A model generated the notes under the pieces. The model saw only the letters and a program-made list of their open reading frames with translations. It made no database searches and was not told the DNA's origin. Below, piece after piece: positions 3,510-37,532 of a stretch of DNA of 37,532 bases; the first letter of the stretch is position 1, and the number at the start of each line of letters is the position of its first letter. The stretch is from contig PLMQ01000049.1 of assembly GCA_003142535.1 (NCBI GenBank), positions 1 through 37,532 on the forward strand, written 5' to 3'. The stretch comes from Syntrophaceae bacterium. Its GTDB lineage: Bacteria; Desulfobacterota; Syntrophia; Syntrophales; Smithellaceae. Position numbers and translations under genes: made by a program.

Positions 3510-4202
3510 ATGGAAGAAAGAAAGCATACCAGTTCGCATTATGAAATGGAACTCCGTGAGGTCAAAAACGGCCTCATTTATTTGGGGGCTTTAACGGAGC
3601 AGGCTATTCAGAAAGCCATGAAGTCCTTATTGGAGAGGAACTCCGAGCTTGCCCGCAAAGTCATTACCGATGACGCAGAGATTGATAAACTGGATAATGA
3701 GCTGGAAGACAGGTGCGTTCGCATTCTGGCACTGCGCCAGCCTACGGCGATTGATTTAAGATTCATCACCACAGCCATCAAAATCAACGGGCATATGGAA
3801 CGAATCGGAGATATGGCCGTCAATATCGCGGAGAAGGCAATCATGCTCAATGAAGAGCCTCAACTGAAACCATATATTGATTTGCCCCGAATGGCCGAGT
3901 TGGTGGGGGAAATGATAAAATATTCGCTGGATGCGCTGGTCAGAAATGATCTTGCGCTGGCGGAAAAAGTTTGGCAGAAAGAACAAATAGTAGATGACCT
4001 AAACGAACAAATTTTCCGGGAACTGCTCACTTTTATGATTGAAGATCCGAAGGTAATCCACAGAGCAATTTTAATCATGCAGATATCGAAGAATCTGGAA
4101 AGAATTGCCGATCATGCCAAGGGTGTTGCCGATATGGTAATGTATCTGGTTACAGGTGAAAGCGTGCGTCATCAAAGTTCAGCGGGAAATCTGAAGAATT
4201 GA
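3510..4202 (+). CDS. phoU: Phosphate signalling protein PhoU
   Basis: Cytoplasmic negative regulator linking the Pst transporter to the PhoR kinase. The frame is open from a TTG at 3471, but GGAGG at 3498-3502 points to the ATG at 3510, giving 230 aa, typical for PhoU. Two PhoU repeats are visible, each with the metal-binding style motif: DNELEDRCVRILALRQPTA with RFITTAIKINGHMERIGDMA in the first half, and IVDDLNEQIFREL with ILIMQISKNLERIADHAKGV in the second. It is followed 12 nt later by the kinase gene. Its place between pstB and phoR is the usual Pho-regulon arrangement. Confidence 0.95.
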   Translation: MEERKHTSSHYEMELREVKNGLIYLGALTEQAIQKAMKSLLERNSELARKVITDDAEIDKLDNELEDRCVRILALRQPTAIDLRFITTAIKINGHMERIGDMAVNIAEKAIMLNEEPQLKPYIDLPRMAELVGEMIKYSLDALVRNDLALAEKVWQKEQIVDDLNEQIFRELLTFMIEDPKVIHRAILIMQISKNLERIADHAKGVADMVMYLVTGESVRHQSSAGNLKN

Positions 4203-4214
4203 TAAGGATTAAGC

Positions 4215-5957
4215 ATGAAGCGCTATCTTTTTTATAAAATTTTCGGCACCTATTTAATTCTGGTGATCCTTTCAGTTTTTGTATCGCATATATTTATCCG
4301 CGATGAAATTCAAAAGACTTTAACCGCAAATATTGAAGAGGAATTAATAGCCGACGCTTATTTGATTGATTTAAACACGCCTCAGATAATATCCGGCCAG
4401 CTTAAGCTGATTTCACGATTATCTAAAGCCAGAATTACCCTGATTGACGCGCAGGGGAAAGTTATAGCCGATTCGGAAAAATCAGCGGAAGCTTTGGAAA
4501 ATCACTTTAACCGCCCGGAGGTGCAGGAAGCGCGCGTCCGGGGGAAAGGCAGGGCTATACGCTTTAGTTCGTCCATCGGTGTGGATATGCTTTATATTGC
4601 CATTCCGGTGAAACATAATTCAACGATAACGGGTTATGTCCGTTTAGCGCGCCCTCTTCATGAAGTACGGCATTCTATCGAAAAAGTTACCGGCACGATT
4701 TTGCTGACTCTGATCATTGTTGTGACTTTTTCGCTCATCCTCGCTTTGCTGTTTTCTTATTGGCTCACCGCGCCGATTAAAAAGATCGAGAAGTTCACCG
4801 AAAAATTGCGGCTAGGAGAACCGGTGGGGACAATTTTTTTAAAAACATCCGATGAGACAAAAAAACTGGCGGACAATATCAATTACCTTGTTGACGAATT
4901 AAAAACCCAGCTTAAATCAGCCAATGAAGAAAAAGCAAAATTAGTGACAGCTTTTTCCAGCATGACGGAAGGGCTGATGATTCTCGATTCCCAAGATAGA
5001 ATCGAAGCCGTTAATCCGTCGCTGGATAATATGCTTGCTCAGTATGGCGACATTAAAGGCAAACCTTTGCTGGAAGCCTTCCGCAACGTTGACCTGCAAA
5101 AGGCTTTTCTACAATTTAAAACAACAAAACAATCCGTAGCGCAGGAAATCACTCTCGGTAATATAGAGCCGGTCATTCTCAATATCAGTATCTCGGCAGT
5201 TGAAGGCAGCATAGCTGACGGAAAAAATATGATTGTCTTTCACGATATTACCAGATTAAAAAAATTAGAAAGAGTCCGGACTGATTTTGTTGCCAATGTT
5301 ACTCATGAAATCCGGACACCGCTCACGGCTATTCTCGGCTATCTGGAAACTATCAGAGACGGAGCGATAGAAAATAAAGACGAAGCGCGGCAATTTATCG
5401 AGATCATTATTAAGCACGCCCAGCGTCTTAACCGTTTAGTGGAAGATTTGCTGACTATATCAAAAATTGAACTGGGTGAGATGCATTTCCATTTTGAGCA
5501 GGTCTCGCTAAGCGAAACTATAGCCGGTGTCCTTCCCTTAATCGAGCCTAAAGCAAAGTTGAAGAAAATAAAAATTAATAATCGCCTGAAGGATTTGCTG
5601 CCGCTGGTAATGGCCGATAAAGACCGGCTGATGCAGGTATTTGTGAACATTCTGGATAATGCCGTCAAATTCACAGAAGAAGCCGGAGAAATAACCATTG
5701 AAGCCGCGGAGGATGCCAAGGACGGCATTTCTGTTTCTATCACTGATACCGGCATCGGTATTCCGGAAAGTGAAGTGGCGAGGCTGGGCGAAAGGTTCTA
5801 TCGAGTGGATAAAACGCGGTCGCGCGATCTGGGCGGGACTGGCTTGGGATTATCCATCGTCAAGCATCTGATGATTGCTCACGGCGGCTGGCTGGAAATT
5901 GAAAGCCGGCTTGGCCGCGGTACAAAAGTATCATTGTTTTTTCCTTTGAAACAATAG
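4215..5957 (+). CDS. phoR: PhoR-like membrane sensor histidine kinase
   Basis: Transmembrane kinase expected to phosphorylate a PhoB-type regulator under phosphate limitation. The 580-residue order is: first membrane segment 10-28, an extracytoplasmic sensor region of about 130 residues, second membrane segment 160-184, HAMP about 185-235, PAS-like domain about 245-350, then HisKA with H364 in the H-box VTHEIRTPL. The catalytic domain has the N-box around N482, DTGIG at 511-515 and GTGLGL at 541-546. All catalytic boxes are intact. It follows phoU by 12 nt. No response-regulator gene is in the window, so the PhoR name rests on context and architecture (extracytoplasmic loop larger than in E. 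coli PhoR, as in many Gram-positive and deltaproteobacterial forms). Confidence 0.85.
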   Translation: MKRYLFYKIFGTYLILVILSVFVSHIFIRDEIQKTLTANIEEELIADAYLIDLNTPQIISGQLKLISRLSKARITLIDAQGKVIADSEKSAEALENHFNRPEVQEARVRGKGRAIRFSSSIGVDMLYIAIPVKHNSTITGYVRLARPLHEVRHSIEKVTGTILLTLIIVVTFSLILALLFSYWLTAPIKKIEKFTEKLRLGEPVGTIFLKTSDETKKLADNINYLVDELKTQLKSANEEKAKLVTAFSSMTEGLMILDSQDRIEAVNPSLDNMLAQYGDIKGKPLLEAFRNVDLQKAFLQFKTTKQSVAQEITLGNIEPVILNISISAVEGSIADGKNMIVFHDITRLKKLERVRTDFVANVTHEIRTPLTAILGYLETIRDGAIENKDEARQFIEIIIKHAQRLNRLVEDLLTISKIELGEMHFHFEQVSLSETIAGVLPLIEPKAKLKKIKINNRLKDLLPLVMADKDRLMQVFVNILDNAVKFTEEAGEITIEAAEDAKDGISVSITDTGIGIPESEVARLGERFYRVDKTRSRDLGGTGLGLSIVKHLMIAHGGWLEIESRLGRGTKVSLFFPLKQ

Positions 5958-6917: not shown

Positions 6918-6971
6918 AACACGATGCCTCTGCAAGAGTGGCCACGCCTGCCCGGCGGGCCTGCCTGGGGC

Positions 6972-7210
6972 GTCGGGTTCCTCAACGTATAACCTAAAGG
7001 TCACGGGTTATTAATACGCCTGCGGTGCTTTCTCCTTACCGCCGCTCAAGCGGGATATCCTCAGCCTTCGGCGGGATAATTCAACTAACAAACATTACTA
7101 CTGCGTTTGTAATATTTGAGTTTCATTAATTCGGCTAACAAACTTCAATTCGCTTGTCCTGCACTTGTGACCTTTAGGTTATACGCTTTGCTTTCGGAAT
7201 TGGAGTTTCA
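6972..7210 (-). repeat. Hairpin mosaic element E2
   Basis: Most of the 493-bp gap between the GNAT and DUF4337 genes is repeat DNA. In order: the E1-type hairpin CGTAT (6986-6990) and ATACG (7014-7018) with a 23-base insert in its loop containing AACCTAAAGGTCACG; a CCGCTCAAGCGG hairpin; GGATAATTC; the variable hairpin CAAACATTAC (7089-7098) with GTAATATTTG (7109-7118, one mismatch); a TTTCATTAATTCG flank; and the terminal module CGGAATTGGAGTTT (7195-7208). From 7211 to 7400 I see no gene and no clear promoter; a GGAGGAG ribosome binding site precedes the next gene. Confidence 0.7.
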
Positions 7211-7410
7211 ACAATAACTGTGATATTGATGATGTCAATGTTGACGGCTGGATGAAAAGGTAGGTCATTGTGGAATTAGGAATTCACTGCACATACCGAA
7301 AGGGGGCATGAATTGGTAACTCTCCACTTAAAACTGCGCGCACCGTATTTCTACCCGTCCGTGACTCAATCCGATAAAATATCTACAGATTATAATAACT
7401 GGAGGAGAAT

Positions 7411-8010: not shown

Positions 8011-8281
8011 CCCCAAAGCAAGCTGAGGGTATTTACCCTCCGCTTCGCGGTATTGTTCACCGCTAATATGCGGTATAATTCGCTCAGCAAACTTTAGCGC
8101 GCTTCGCTTCTAAAGTTTGTGGCTCATTACCGCCGCTTACGCGGGATAATTCGCTCAGCAAACTTTAGCGCGCTTCGCTTCTAAAGTTTGTGGCTCATTA
8201 CAACTTACCAATTCCGACTTGTGACCTCTCGTGACCTTTAGGTTATTAGGTTATGCGCTGCGCTTTCGAAATTGGAGTTTT
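8011..8281 (-). repeat. Hairpin mosaic element E3
   Basis: The 345-bp gap before the cyclic-nucleotide-binding gene holds CCAAAGCAAGCT (8013-8024), GAGGGTA (8025-8031) paired with TACCCTC (8034-8040), CCGCTTCGCGG, ACCGC...GCGGT, two copies of the variable hairpin, and an outer stem CCAATTCCG (8208-8216) with CGAAATTGG (8267-8275). The loop of that outer stem contains the GTGACCTTTAGGTTATTAGGTTA module. The order matches E4 and E7. No coding potential is evident. Confidence 0.75.
8075..8201. repeat. Tandem duplication of a 71-bp hairpin unit
   Basis: A 56-bp segment starting ATAATTCGCTCAGCAAAC occurs identically at 8075-8130 and 8146-8201, so the repeat period is 71 bp. Each copy contains a perfect 10-bp stem, CAAACTTTAG with CTAAAGTTTG (8088-8097/8110-8119 and 8159-8168/8181-8190), and ends GGCTCATTAC. 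Confidence 0.9.
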
Positions 8282-8343
8282 ACAACAAAAAATGATACCA
8301 TCATTTATTTTGACGCACTTTAATTGTGAAAATTTCTAGATAT

Positions 8344-9858: not shown

Positions 9859-10782
9859 TTAATAAGTATAGCTTACAGCAGCACCAGCGGAAAAACGCTC
9901 GGAATATTGCCCTTCAATATTCAGGTGAAAGCCTTTAATAAGAGGTATATCAGCACCGACAAATCCTCCGACAATGGAACTGTTTTTCATTTGGACATCA
10001 TCGGTTCCGAATTTTAAGCCGGGAATATTAGCATCAAGACAAACCTTTGCTTCTGAATAATAAACGTAGGGACCGGCATACAATTTTATATTGTAGGGAA
10101 TTGTCGCCTGAAACCCGATACCGAAATTGACATCCCACATGTTCTTCACTTTAAGGTCGGCTGTAAAAGGTGTTCCGGTATCGGTTCCTGTAATATCATC
10201 CGTAAAGTAACTGAAGTAATAAGTTCCTTGAATAAAAGCGCCAATTCCGAATATTTTATTAATTGGTAGAAATCCTTTAGCCCCCAGCGTTCCGAAAAAC
10301 TTCCAGTTTTCTGCAAAATCGTTTCTGCTTGTAGTTGTTGAAGTAACTGTCGAATTAAAAACATCAAAAATTTTTAAATCGGAGATTCCTATTCTTCCGT
10401 ATATTTCCCATATATTATGTCCGCCGTAACCCACCTGTGTGTAAATTTGATTTTGCCGGAATATATGTTCCGTGCCATTCTTGAGTATATCTTCATGATA
10501 CATGTAGCCGATAGCCGTATTCAATCCTCCGGCTTCCCGGGAAACAGTCTGTGGCGGGCCAAATAAGCCGGAAGCGGCAGCGTTTTCCATGGTTGCGAAA
10601 ATTAACAATACAGATAAAACGACAATCAATTTATTCGTGAAACTACAATTCCGAAAGCGTAGCGCATTGGAATTGTTAAGTTGAACAATCCCGCGAAGCG
10701 GAGGGTATAATACCTCGCAGCTTGTTGCGAAATGTTTCCAAAGCTTGCTTTGGGATTCATGGCCGTGATTTTTCGTAAGCAT
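9859..10782 (-). CDS. Outer-membrane beta-barrel protein with repeat-derived N-terminus
   Basis: A 307-residue protein whose C-terminal 230 residues read as alternating amphipathic strands (for example IYGRIGISDLKIFD, IPYNIKLYAGPYVYYSE, FHLNIEGQYSERFSAGAAVSYTY) ending in an aromatic residue, as outer-membrane barrels do. A signal-peptide-like stretch NKLIVVLSVLLIFATMENAAAS lies at about residues 50-71, unusually far from the ATG at 10782. The residues between, about 7-48, are encoded by a hairpin repeat element. Either the repeat was inserted in frame after the original start, or translation begins downstream, for example at the TTG just before IVVLSV. It is last in the mla block, about 50 nt after mlaA. 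Function beyond an envelope barrel is unknown. Confidence 0.7.
   Translation of the reverse strand: MLTKNHGHESQSKLWKHFATSCEVLYPPLRGIVQLNNSNALRFRNCSFTNKLIVVLSVLLIFATMENAAASGLFGPPQTVSREAGGLNTAIGYMYHEDILKNGTEHIFRQNQIYTQVGYGGHNIWEIYGRIGISDLKIFDVFNSTVTSTTTSRNDFAENWKFFGTLGAKGFLPINKIFGIGAFIQGTYYFSYFTDDITGTDTGTPFTADLKVKNMWDVNFGIGFQATIPYNIKLYAGPYVYYSEAKVCLDANIPGLKFGTDDVQMKNSSIVGGFVGADIPLIKGFHLNIEGQYSERFSAGAAVSYTY
10637..10756 (-). repeat. Hairpin mosaic element E4 inside a coding sequence
   Basis: Read on the minus strand the order is CCAAAGC/GCTTTGG (perfect 7-bp stem, 10738-10744 and 10747-10753), a GAGGTATTATACCCTC palindrome, CCGCTTCGCGG, GATTGTTCAAC, then the terminal stem CAATTCC (10647-10653) with GGAATTG (10669-10675). 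It matches E3, which looks like a version shortened between two AAGCT direct repeats. It lies between the ATG and the signal-peptide-like segment of the barrel gene and adds no stop codon in that frame. Confidence 0.75.
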
Positions 10783-10831: not shown

Positions 10832-11737
10832 TTAATCTTTCGCCGGATTAGATTCCCGCGCTGTTTTGGCAGCTTCCGGCTTTACGTCATTCCCTTTGAT
10901 TTTCTTCAACCTGTATTGAATGTAAGCGTCGCGCACCGCCACATAAGGATCAATAGCCGCGTCCTGCAGAGATTCATAATCTCCAATCCGTAGTGATGTC
11001 GCATTGACTTCATCTAAACTTTTAACAGAAAGCCATATATACCAGGGATTAATATATGAAACCGGATACAGAAAATATTCGCCGATTATATCAACGGAAT
11101 CTCTCGGGCTCGATGGCCCCAGTATCGGCCAGACAATATAAAAACCATGTCCCACTCCGTAGTAGCCAAGTGTCAGTCCAAAATCCGTATCCTGCTTCGG
11201 CAGATTGATTTTATTTTCCGCTGCCGGGTCCATAAGCCCGCCAATGCCCCAGATGGTATTTATCCCGAAACGGCCAACTTCAGTAGCTGCACCGCTAAAG
11301 TCCGCCTGGAGAACAAAACTGATAAAGCGGATAGGAAAACCCAGATTAGTAAAAAAATTCTTTACGCTGATACGCGCCGGTTCCGGAACAACTTTGCTGT
11401 AACCCTGCGCAACCGGCTTGAGCAGCCAGAAATAAAGTTTGTCATTGAAGACATACATAGCCCGGTTAAATGGCTCCAGAGGGTCGGCAATGGTTATAAC
11501 TTCTTCATCCTTAATGTCATCGAGATATTCATCGTCGCTTTTGGCCTTGTTTTCGGCTGGGGGAGATGCTTCTGCCTGCATAGCCTGCGTCTGCTTTGTG
11601 TTGACAGTGGCTTTAGCTTCCTGCGGAGTCGAAGATATATTATCTGTCTGCTGTGCAGAAGACGTCCGGTTGGAGCTGTGGGCGCAACCGATAACTAACA
11701 AAGCAGCGATTAAAACCAGACAAGAGAAACGTTTCAT
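10832..11737 (-). CDS. mlaA: Outer-membrane lipoprotein MlaA (VacJ)
   Basis: Outer-membrane component of the Mla phospholipid-trafficking system, which removes phospholipid from the outer leaflet and hands it to MlaC. The 301-residue protein starts with a lipoprotein signal (VIGC lipobox, C18) and a low-complexity linker of about 60 residues. The MlaA domain follows, beginning DPLEPFNRAMYVFNDKLYFW and continuing with VPEPARISVKNFFTNLGFP and FGLTLGYYGVGHGFYIVWPILGPSSPRD, all typical. A short tail rich in charged residues ends it. It follows mlaC on the same strand after about 275 nt of repeat DNA, an atypically long gap. Confidence 0.93.
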   Translation of the reverse strand: MKRFSCLVLIAALLVIGCAHSSNRTSSAQQTDNISSTPQEAKATVNTKQTQAMQAEASPPAENKAKSDDEYLDDIKDEEVITIADPLEPFNRAMYVFNDKLYFWLLKPVAQGYSKVVPEPARISVKNFFTNLGFPIRFISFVLQADFSGAATEVGRFGINTIWGIGGLMDPAAENKINLPKQDTDFGLTLGYYGVGHGFYIVWPILGPSSPRDSVDIIGEYFLYPVSYINPWYIWLSVKSLDEVNATSLRIGDYESLQDAAIDPYVAVRDAYIQYRLKKIKGNDVKPEAAKTARESNPAKD

Positions 11738-11758
11738 AATACAAACCCGTCTTTATTA

Positions 11759-11955
11759 GTGAAACTCCAATTCCGAAAGCAAAGCGTAGCGGAATTGGCA
11801 AGTTGAACTATCCCGCAAAGCGGTGGTTGTGAAACTCCAATTCCGAAAGCAAAGCCCGGCGGATGCTGGGCGAAGCGAATAGAAGTTTGTTAGCCGAATC
11901 CCGTACAAGCAGGGATGTAATGCCCTGCAGTTTACTACATAATCGGGTTCCAAAG
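11759..11955 (-). repeat. Hairpin mosaic element E5 between mlaC and mlaA
   Basis: Two copies of the terminal module GAAACTCCAATTCCGAAAGC occur at 11761-11780 and 11831-11850. The first forms a perfect 9-bp stem, CCAATTCCG (11767-11775) with CGGAATTGG (11790-11798), followed by CCGCAAAGCGG. Further along are GAAGTTTGTTAGCCGAAT, part of the variable hairpin module, and a perfect GCAGGG/CCCTGC stem near 11910-11928. In minus-strand sense the module ends about 20 nt before the mlaA start. Confidence 0.7.
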
Positions 11956-15450: not shown

Positions 15451-16341
15451 TTATAATAATTTGTATTCGCCCTGAATTTTAACTACAGCGGAACCGCCGA
15501 AAATGACACTTCTTCCATCAACATTCTGCACAGTATCTAATTTGACGATATTGGGGAGATTATGGCTGTTATTTTGTTCGATACTTAAAATACGGCCATC
15601 CCATAAACTTTCTCGCAGCAGATAATAGCCAAAGGCGGAATTGCCGGAACCGGTTGCCGGGTCTTCCAGATAGCCGTATTTCGGCGCGAACACACGGGTG
15701 CGAAATTTATTCGATTTGTCCGCTACTTCATCCGTAAATATGAGAATAATATCAATGCCGTTTTTTAAGCAGAAGTCTTTCAATTGAGCTTGGTTTGGCA
15801 GCACCGCAAGGCACAACTCTAAATTCTTGATGGGTACAATAAGCGTGTTTAACCCGGCATTAATCAAACCTAATGCAAATTTTTGGTTAATCGCTTGCGG
15901 TTTGATATTTAACGCTCGGGCGATCTCCTCACTTCCCAGTTTGAGGTGATTATATTGGGGCGCGGGCGCAGTTATAAAAATGGAATCACTTTCATTTATT
16001 TTATTATAGACGTTCAGGCAATCATCCTTGACTCTAATCTTGACGATTTCTTGTTTTAATAAATAATCACTGCTTTTGATCAGTTCATACATGATGCCGA
16101 TAGTGCCGTGTCCGCAGAAATCGACTGCACATTCCGCGGAATAATATTTGAGAAAAAAGCATTCTTCTTCCGGGAATAAATAAATTACCTCGTTGACATA
16201 ACCTTTCAGCTCTCTGGCGATTAACTGCATTTCGTCATTTGATATTCCATCGGTGCTGTTTAAATAAACACAGGCACAGGGATTCCCGGAGGATAGCCCG
16301 TTGGTGAAAGCATCTATTTTTTTAAAGGGAAAACTTTTCAT
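15451..16341 (-). CDS. PhzF-family isomerase-like protein
   Basis: A 296-residue protein with the diaminopimelate-epimerase-like PhzF fold. It opens IDAFTNGLSSGNPCACVYL (residues 9-27). A glutamate (E51, in NEVIYL) stands at the place of the PhzF catalytic acid, CGHGT is at 76-80, and DPATGSGNSAFGYYLL follows in the C-terminal half. PhzF of phenazine synthesis isomerises a dihydroanthranilate. Most relatives, like this one, have unknown substrates, and there are no other phenazine genes here. The ATG has GGAG eight bases upstream, which is the end of a repeat module. It is the last gene of a minus-strand run of DJ-1, SDR and methyltransferase genes. Confidence 0.85.
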   Translation of the reverse strand: MKSFPFKKIDAFTNGLSSGNPCACVYLNSTDGISNDEMQLIARELKGYVNEVIYLFPEEECFFLKYYSAECAVDFCGHGTIGIMYELIKSSDYLLKQEIVKIRVKDDCLNVYNKINESDSIFITAPAPQYNHLKLGSEEIARALNIKPQAINQKFALGLINAGLNTLIVPIKNLELCLAVLPNQAQLKDFCLKNGIDIILIFTDEVADKSNKFRTRVFAPKYGYLEDPATGSGNSAFGYYLLRESLWDGRILSIEQNNSHNLPNIVKLDTVQNVDGRSVIFGGSAVVKIQGEYKLL

Positions 16342-16345
16342 AGTT

Positions 16346-16485
16346 GAAACTCCAATTGCGAAAGCGCATAACCTAATAACCTAAAGGTCACGAGAGGTCA
16401 AGTCGGAATTGGTAAGTTGTAATGAGACCCAAACTTCAGAAACATAGTGCACTGAAGTTTGCTGGTCGAATTATCCCGCTCAGCG
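16346..16485 (+). repeat. Hairpin mosaic element E6
   Basis: The element opens with the terminal module GAAACTCCAATTGCGAAAGC (16346-16365). Its stem CCAATTGCG (16352-16360) pairs with CGGAATTGG (16404-16412, one mismatch), with TAACCTAATAACCTAAAGG in the loop. It continues GTTGTAATGAGAC, then the variable hairpin CAAACTTCAG (16430-16439) with CTGAAGTTTG (16452-16461), CGAATTATC and CCGCTCAGCGG. This is E3 in the opposite orientation. It fills the gap between the phzF-like and methyltransferase genes. Confidence 0.8.
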
Positions 16486-16487
16486 GA

Positions 16488-16526
16488 GGGGAATGAGACT
16501 CGGACTAAGGCTGAGCCTCATTCCCC
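16488..16526 (-). terminator. Palindrome overlapping the methyltransferase stop codon
   Basis: GGGGAATGAG (16488-16497) and CTCATTCCCC (16517-16526) are a perfect 10-bp inverted repeat, and CTC (16499-16501) with GAG (16513-16515) extends the stem after one mismatch. The stop codon of the methyltransferase (16505-16507) is in the loop. It could be a 3'-end hairpin; there is no U-tract. Confidence 0.4.
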
Positions 16527-31999: not shown

Positions 32000-32255
32000 G
32001 GGTAATACCCCTGCTTCGCGGGATAACCCTGACAGCCTTTGGCTGCAGGATAATTCGTCCAACAAATTTCAGTGCGCTGAGCTTCTGAAACTTGGGACTC
32101 ATTACAACTAACAGATATTACTGCACTTCGTTTGCAATATCTGAGTTTCATTAATTCGACTAACCAATTTCGACCTGTGACCCCCCGTGACCTCTTGCCA
32201 CCTTCAGGTGGTTAGGTTATTAGGTTAGACGCTACGCTTTCGGAATTGGAGTTTC
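32000..32255 (-). repeat. Hairpin mosaic element E7
   Basis: The gap after the lipoprotein gene holds, in order, GGGTAATACCC, a CTGCTTCGCGGG hairpin, an AGCC/GGCT hairpin, GGATAATTCG, and two different copies of the variable hairpin: CAAATTTCAG/CTGAAACTTG (32063-32072 and 32085-32094) and CAGATATTAC/GCAATATCTG (32112-32121 and 32134-32143). The outer stem CCAATTTCG (32164-32172) with CGGAATTGG (32241-32249) encloses CCACCTTCAGGTGG and TTAGGTTATTAGGTTA. It lies between converging genes, just before the shared terminator. Confidence 0.8.
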
Positions 32256-32262
32256 ACAATAT

Positions 32263-32294
32263 AAAAAGGGGGCTCTCTAAAAAGCCCCCTTTTT
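32263..32294. terminator. Bidirectional terminator between converging operons
   Basis: AAAAAGGGGGCT (32263-32274) and AGCCCCCTTTTT (32283-32294) form a perfect 12-bp stem with an eight-base loop. Oligo-A on one side and oligo-T on the other let it work on both strands, ending the lipoprotein operon (+) and the pal-cpoB operon (-). Confidence 0.93.
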
Positions 32295-37265: not shown

Positions 37266-37277
37266 TATATCTTTTTA

Positions 37278-37425
37278 ATGAGACCCAAACTTCAGAAACA
37301 AAGTACACTGAAGTTTGCTGGTCGAATTATCCCCGAAGCGAAGCGTAGCGAGATCAGAAACTCCTATTCCGAAAGCAAAGCGTATAACCTAATAACCTAA
37401 CCACCTTTAGGTGATTAGAAGGCTA
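37278..37425 (+). repeat. Hairpin mosaic element E8 upstream of tolQ
   Basis: The 335-bp segment after the tol operon carries AATGAGACC, the variable hairpin CAAACTTCAG (37286-37295) with CTGAAGTTTG (37308-37317), CGAATTATCC, the terminal module GAAACTCCTATTCCGAAAGC (37357-37376), TAACCTAATAACCTAA and CACCTTTAGGTG. The first 50 bases are nearly identical to 16422-16475 (E6). From 37426 to the window end I see no gene, only further short repeat-like sequence (TGTCATTGCGGG). Confidence 0.75.
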
Positions 37426-37532
37426 GGGTAAATCCGGTAACCCTTTGTCATTCCCTCTTGTGCCTTACAGGATGTGAAGTCGCTGTATCGCAATCATTGT
37501 TTGTCATTGCGGGTATAAATATAGGTAAAGTG

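Follow-up and report, generated by a model that had tools for sequence, protein, structure and literature searches.

The best-known palindromic repeats that are read in frame as part of a protein are those of Rickettsia and Wolbachia, for which explanations often appeal to small population size and relaxed selection. As the passages on them describe, the Rickettsia palindromic elements (RPEs) are dispersed palindromic repeats of about 105–150 bp that are found between genes and also in frame within unrelated conserved genes, where they leave the reading unbroken (PMC2229807, PMC10969869, PMC3767692), and the gmk product with its RPE insert is reported in one such passage to be translated and active (PMC2229807). 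Bacterial MITEs (ERIC, the 107-bp form of NEMIS and YPAL/RU-2) are treated in part of the same source as small non-autonomous repeats whose open frames are fused to ORFs, and the signal peptide of Yersinia YPO1552 is described there as partly MITE-derived (PMC2229807).

The window analyzed here, the whole 37,532-nt stretch of contig PLMQ01000049.1 from a Syntrophaceae bacterium, contains a repeat that behaves like the RPEs. It is a dispersed palindromic repeat, here of 140 nt and 46–47 codons, that is carried in frame by unrelated genes. Four of these were examined for empty sites, which are seen in insert-free orthologues of the window gene (31/32), a RumA-type RNA methyltransferase (14/14 read, 15 fetched), a nucleotidase (9/9 read, 15 fetched) and GspD (7/8). 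The family differs from the RPEs in lineage (Syntrophaceae-like MAGs) and presumably in sequence (RPE-1 to RPE-10), the likeness being one of behaviour, and in that 4 of 14 in-frame events fall in signal-peptide n-regions, a pattern that the cited passages do not describe. Whereas the MITE fusions help to create a new exported protein, the present element interrupts the signal of a long-established, conserved gene, and the terminal inverted repeats and target duplication of MITEs were not seen in this family. REP/RAYT repeats resemble it in being many short palindromes that are mostly intergenic, but the present element is larger and protein-coding, and a survey of Y1_Tnp genes (10/14 genomes) revealed no RAYT-type transposase linked to it. 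The extended signal peptide region of autotransporters places a long n-region ahead of an ordinary hydrophobic core; the long n-region is alike, but that region is not a repeat insertion and its sequence differs. Since the likeness to RPEs is one of behaviour only and the MITE hallmarks are unseen, we place the family among the "protein-coding palindromic repeats", as a new member of that kind and not of the RPE family. With lifestyle judged from sample labels (fen, bog and lake sediment), the presence of in-frame coding palindromes, in numerous dispersed copies, in Syntrophaceae-like bacteria suggests that this behaviour is not tied to intracellular life.

The interrupted gene and its orthologues

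The host gene (9859..10782, minus strand; ORF and translation) has 307 codons, encodes a secreted, beta-barrel-like protein and lies immediately 3' of mlaA (10832..11737, minus strand; PF04333 MlaA, E 1.1e-68). Its product is a probable outer-membrane protein with a presumed beta-barrel fold, judged from a signal-like N-terminus and a C-terminal aromatic residue (Tyr). The Pfam search of the protein returned no family, the AlphaFold model from the single sequence had a mean pLDDT of 32 and no reliable fold, and the PDB profile search gave no solved relative, its four weak matches to histones (best E 0.34) being taken as chance. The mature part (9862..10572, minus strand) is conserved, with the C-terminal Tyr invariant in 20/20 aligned sequences. 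Over 236 codons its divergence at codon positions 1/2/3 is 0.195/0.110/0.487 against genome G008 and 0.174/0.136/0.483 against G022, a strong bias, and the mature protein is under purifying selection.

Alignment with orthologues places the native start and n-region, ATG CTT ACG AAA (MLTK), at 10771..10782 (minus strand), and these codons are kept. They are followed by the repeat at 10630..10770 (minus strand; NHGHESQSKLWKHFATSCEVLYPPLRGIVQLNNSNALRFRNCSFTNK), 141 nt or 47 codons in frame as delimited by the family consensus and family ends. The signal peptide continues from there with its hydrophobic core and c-region, LIVVLSVLLIFATMENAAA (10573..10629, minus strand), assigned from hydropathy and from alignment with orthologous signal peptides. 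The insert thus forms residues 5–51, between MLTK and the core; the Kyte-Doolittle maximum of 3.38 is found at residues 52–63, within the core LIVVLSVLLIFA, and the signal peptidase cut is predicted after AAA, a site placed by eye. The earlier note had put a repeat, its element E4, at 10637–10756 inside the coding sequence of the barrel gene, open in frame from the ATG at 10782 and contributing about 40 residues ahead of the secretion signal. The repeat is real and ORF 10782–9859 does cross it without a stop codon, with repeat-derived residues preceding the hydrophobic core; its extent is larger than noted (10770–10630, 141 nt), and the residues number 47. Over 140 nt the window copy aligns to the family consensus with 94.3% identity and no gap. 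Misassembly at the repeat is unlikely because both flanks match the orthologous arrangement, with mlaA and then CTTACGAAA on the left and the signal core and barrel on the right. A tRNA scan of the window gave nothing.

An orthologue of the host gene was found in 37 other genomes of the 59 searched (40 genomes matched: the own genome, the 37 with orthologues, and G004 and G033, in which the repeat alone matched). N-termini were read over the 300 nt upstream of the mature protein in 33 of 37 loci, own included, leaving out G007 (contig end), G020, G021, G025 and G026; in another reading the G026 N-terminus also has no element. The element is absent from 31 of the 32 orthologue N-termini, and the comparison across the inserted residues that the earlier note had proposed therefore leaves its reading of a repeat standing, since these 31 are without residues 5–51. 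The exception is G022, of another genus (L099, around 4018–4226), in which two partial elements lie in frame in the n-region. This orthologue reads ATG-AAA, element, TTC-CTC-TCG-AAA-AAT, the latter being the counterpart of CTT-ACG-AAA-AAT, so that the elements follow ATG-AAA in G022 versus ATG-CTT-ACG-AAA in the window gene. Because the positions differ, the insertions in the own genome (G000) and G022 are taken to be independent; the frames and arrangements differ as well, with one full copy in G000 and two partial copies in G022. There is a TTG inside the element of the G022 orthologue.

Start codons and the fate of the repeat residues

The orthologue set used for the start-codon question exposed an apparent ACG start across genera. 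Fifteen of 32 orthologues (L012, L013, L016–L019, L021, L027, L029, L030, L035, L169–L171 and L176) have no in-frame ATG, GTG or TTG between codon −60, or the upstream stop, and codon −18, and all 15 have an ACG at −23 to −27, preceded in each case by a purine-rich Shine-Dalgarno-like stretch (by eye). G018 has one ATG at −17, inside the core and beyond the scan range, and in-frame stops precede the ACG by one codon in G008 and by two in G013. A GTG occupies the ACG position in G014 and G030, in the g2 genomes an ATG stands about six codons 5' of it, and in orthologues with an ATG the position varies (ACA, ACT, GTG and GCA among others). The upstream mlaA starts with ATG-Lys or similar in the 12 loci examined, and the ACG lies 14–25 nt past its stop in nine of these and 2, 99 and 139 nt past it in the other three, a spacing that provides a putative setting for translational coupling. 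The ACG at 10776–10774 of the window gene aligns with this apparent conserved start codon. A literature search for bacteria that naturally start at ACG yielded no recognized case among the papers listed.

We consider it probable, at roughly 0.7, that a non-autonomous, palindrome-rich mobile repeat has inserted in frame in a Sec signal peptide and is carried as a translated, near-neutral and tolerated passenger, not as a domesticated domain. The repeat would have entered behind codon 4, ahead of the hydrophobic core of the signal, and translation would still begin at the native start (ATG 10782 or ACG 10776), producing an n-region of about 50 residues. The Sec machinery would recognize the intact core despite this long n-region, and the 47 extra residues are probably synthesized and lost when the signal is cleaved off. 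Because signal peptidase would remove the repeat-derived residues and leave the mature barrel unchanged, the insertion would be close to neutral. A point against this reading is that there is only a weak Shine-Dalgarno-like stretch before ATG 10782.

Translation might instead begin at a start that the repeat provides or adjoins, either TTG 10629 or ACG 10638 in the right end of the element, which would make the element a new leader. An in-frame TTG does lie immediately before the core, the right end of the element, ACG AAT AAA TTG, resembles the ACG AAG AAG TTA of relatives, which apparently start at ACG AAx AAx, and several other copies in the own genome lie just 5' of genes whose ATG comes after the element. 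The family consensus furthermore has GGAG near its right end, four bases 5' of the position of ACG 10638, but in the window copy this is GTAG (Trp to Cys at residue 46), so that no Shine-Dalgarno-like stretch is left there. The weak TTG start proposed in the earlier note fares no better, as it also has no Shine-Dalgarno-like stretch and its product, MIVVLSVLLIF, would be a signal peptide with no positive charge before the core. With the native start codons kept 5' of the insert, ATG-CTT-ACG-AAA matching the orthologues, we regard a downstream start as unlikely.

It is rather improbable that the element acts as RNA or DNA, with hairpins near the start altering translation or message stability and the coding capacity incidental. 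Short palindromes follow one another along the element, and the 201-nt stretch folds at −45.9 kcal/mol, but the excess over shuffled sequences is modest (z −1.85, with 10 of 200 shuffles folding equally well), and the Rfam scan of the window gave no family for the element or any other part.

Domestication of the repeat peptide, which the earlier note had offered as its other option, would make the long n-region functional, for example in delaying export or rerouting it in the manner of extended signal peptides. The independent hits on the host gene in G000 and G022 and the insertion in GspD common to two species at one site would fit such a role. The eight differences between the window copy and the consensus are, however, seven nonsynonymous and one synonymous, where random single changes in the element would give 315 to 91; the consensus was assembled by eye and eight substitutions are too few to prove neutrality, but the repeat peptide is not visibly constrained. 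The G000 and G022 inserts differ in frame and arrangement and the other orthologues manage without an element, and we hold domestication to be very unlikely. That the insert is one step in the decay of a gene being lost is the least credible account, for although the insertion splits the export signal, the mature part is intact, stop-free and strongly biased by codon position in its divergence.

In-frame insertions in other genes

The fetched loci of six genomes yielded 14 in-frame events, 12 of them in genes recognized by orthologues or by Pfam above cut-off; events were located via open frames, and frame-breaking insertions are outside the count. Those of the own genome are in the window gene, the RumA-type methyltransferase, another methyltransferase, a 5'-nucleotidase, ComEC, a DsbA-like protein, an HPr-kinase-like protein and a TANGO2 protein, the last two genes being on the strand opposite to the element. 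G022 has events in the host-gene orthologue, in an ORF with glycosyltransferase and DUF4922 domains and in GspD, and the remainder are in a GDSL-like protein of G033, MntP of G012 and a membrane protein of G011. The two weakest of the 14 are the G011 ORF (562 codons), without a Pfam match, and the GDSL-like ORF, below the Pfam cut-off. In the 849-codon ORF of G022 the element lies between the glycosyltransferase and DUF4922 domains, and this ORF may be a native fusion. Loci in which the element is merely 5' of a likely ATG (L078, L082, L085, L088, L104, L108, L109 and L113–L116) were not taken as in-gene, and doubtful ORFs (L004, L068, L089, L092, L103, L110 and L111) were left out.

The 5'-nucleotidase of the own genome reads MKLLRT, then the element, then TFFAVLFFSTNLFAAEK, and all nine relatives read (15 fetched) have an uninterrupted signal, e.g. 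MKLLRIVIIFAAVFISTNLLAAEK. In GspD of G022 (L155) the element follows MKTMHPF. Seven of the eight other GspD N-termini read have no element, and the eighth, from G060 (L163), has a related piece at the G022 site, with 89% identity over 64 nt; the two pieces look like one shared insertion that diverged afterwards. Both are antisense to the gene and both are open. In both the nucleotidase and GspD, the element contains or is followed by other possible starts (GTG or ATG).

Four of the 14 events (window gene, G022 orthologue, nucleotidase and GspD) are in signal-peptide n-regions, which by a crude rule make up about 0.5% of codons (216 of 40,935 in 136 ORFs). The binomial probability is 7e-7, and 9e-4 when the first ten codons of any gene serve as the reference; the statistic is post hoc, and gene starts adjoin intergenic DNA where copies are common. 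One gene, the host gene, was hit twice independently. It is possible, if somewhat doubtful, that protein-coding mobile repeats recurrently find a safe harbour in the n-region of cleavable signal peptides, where a repeat would be translated and discarded with the signal and hence persist in coding DNA almost free of cost. This offers an idea of where inserts may survive, namely in parts of proteins that get cut off.

Copies, ends and distribution of the family

DNA searches of the own genome gave at least 46 matches to the element at E ≤ 0.001, fragments included (40 of 236 first-look candidates scored), and the translated element gave at least 149 (150 of 362 candidates scored). Matches to the family occur in 28 of the 59 genomes searched, own genome included, and the named records with relatives are Syntrophaceae MAGs (10 of 13 loci) and deltaproteobacterial MAGs (two), the remaining locus being labelled Chloroflexi. 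A literature search for the repeat in Syntrophaceae, or for deltaproteobacterial MITEs inserted in frame, found none. The consensus is 140 nt with visible palindromic units, and full-length copies vary in length; the ends, (A)ATCACGGG on the left and TTTCAC-N-AATAAA on the right, were taken from 72 distinct full-length copies in fetched loci. Two of the three forward frames of the consensus are open, and of the 61 full-length copies with no known place in a gene, 29 are open in the frame of the window copy and 33 in a different forward frame. Because openness is partly a property of the family, an open frame alone is weak evidence.

Neither a terminal inverted repeat nor a flanking target duplication was visible by eye or in base counts among the 72 copies, and a short target duplication hidden in the A-rich element ends would escape detection. 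No link to a Y1 transposase was found, as Y1_Tnp (PF01797), present in 10 of the 14 genomes tested, occurs in repeat-rich and repeat-poor genomes alike. One Y1_Tnp gene of the own genome (C57:20607–20936; locus L076, G000:C57:20183–20936) is separated from an element copy by about 350 nt, a proximity that may be fortuitous.

Within the window, related repeat copies (D2, D4, D5, I7, I8, I12, I14 and I15) lie in the gap 5' of mlaA at 11746..11899 (no strand assigned), one of several intergenic clusters of related palindromic pieces, the others being at 7066–7220, 8025–8292, 16340–16506, 32042–32270 and 37273–37428. A second pair of direct repeats, at 1529–1594 and 6962–7045 (D7 and D11), is unrelated to the element family.
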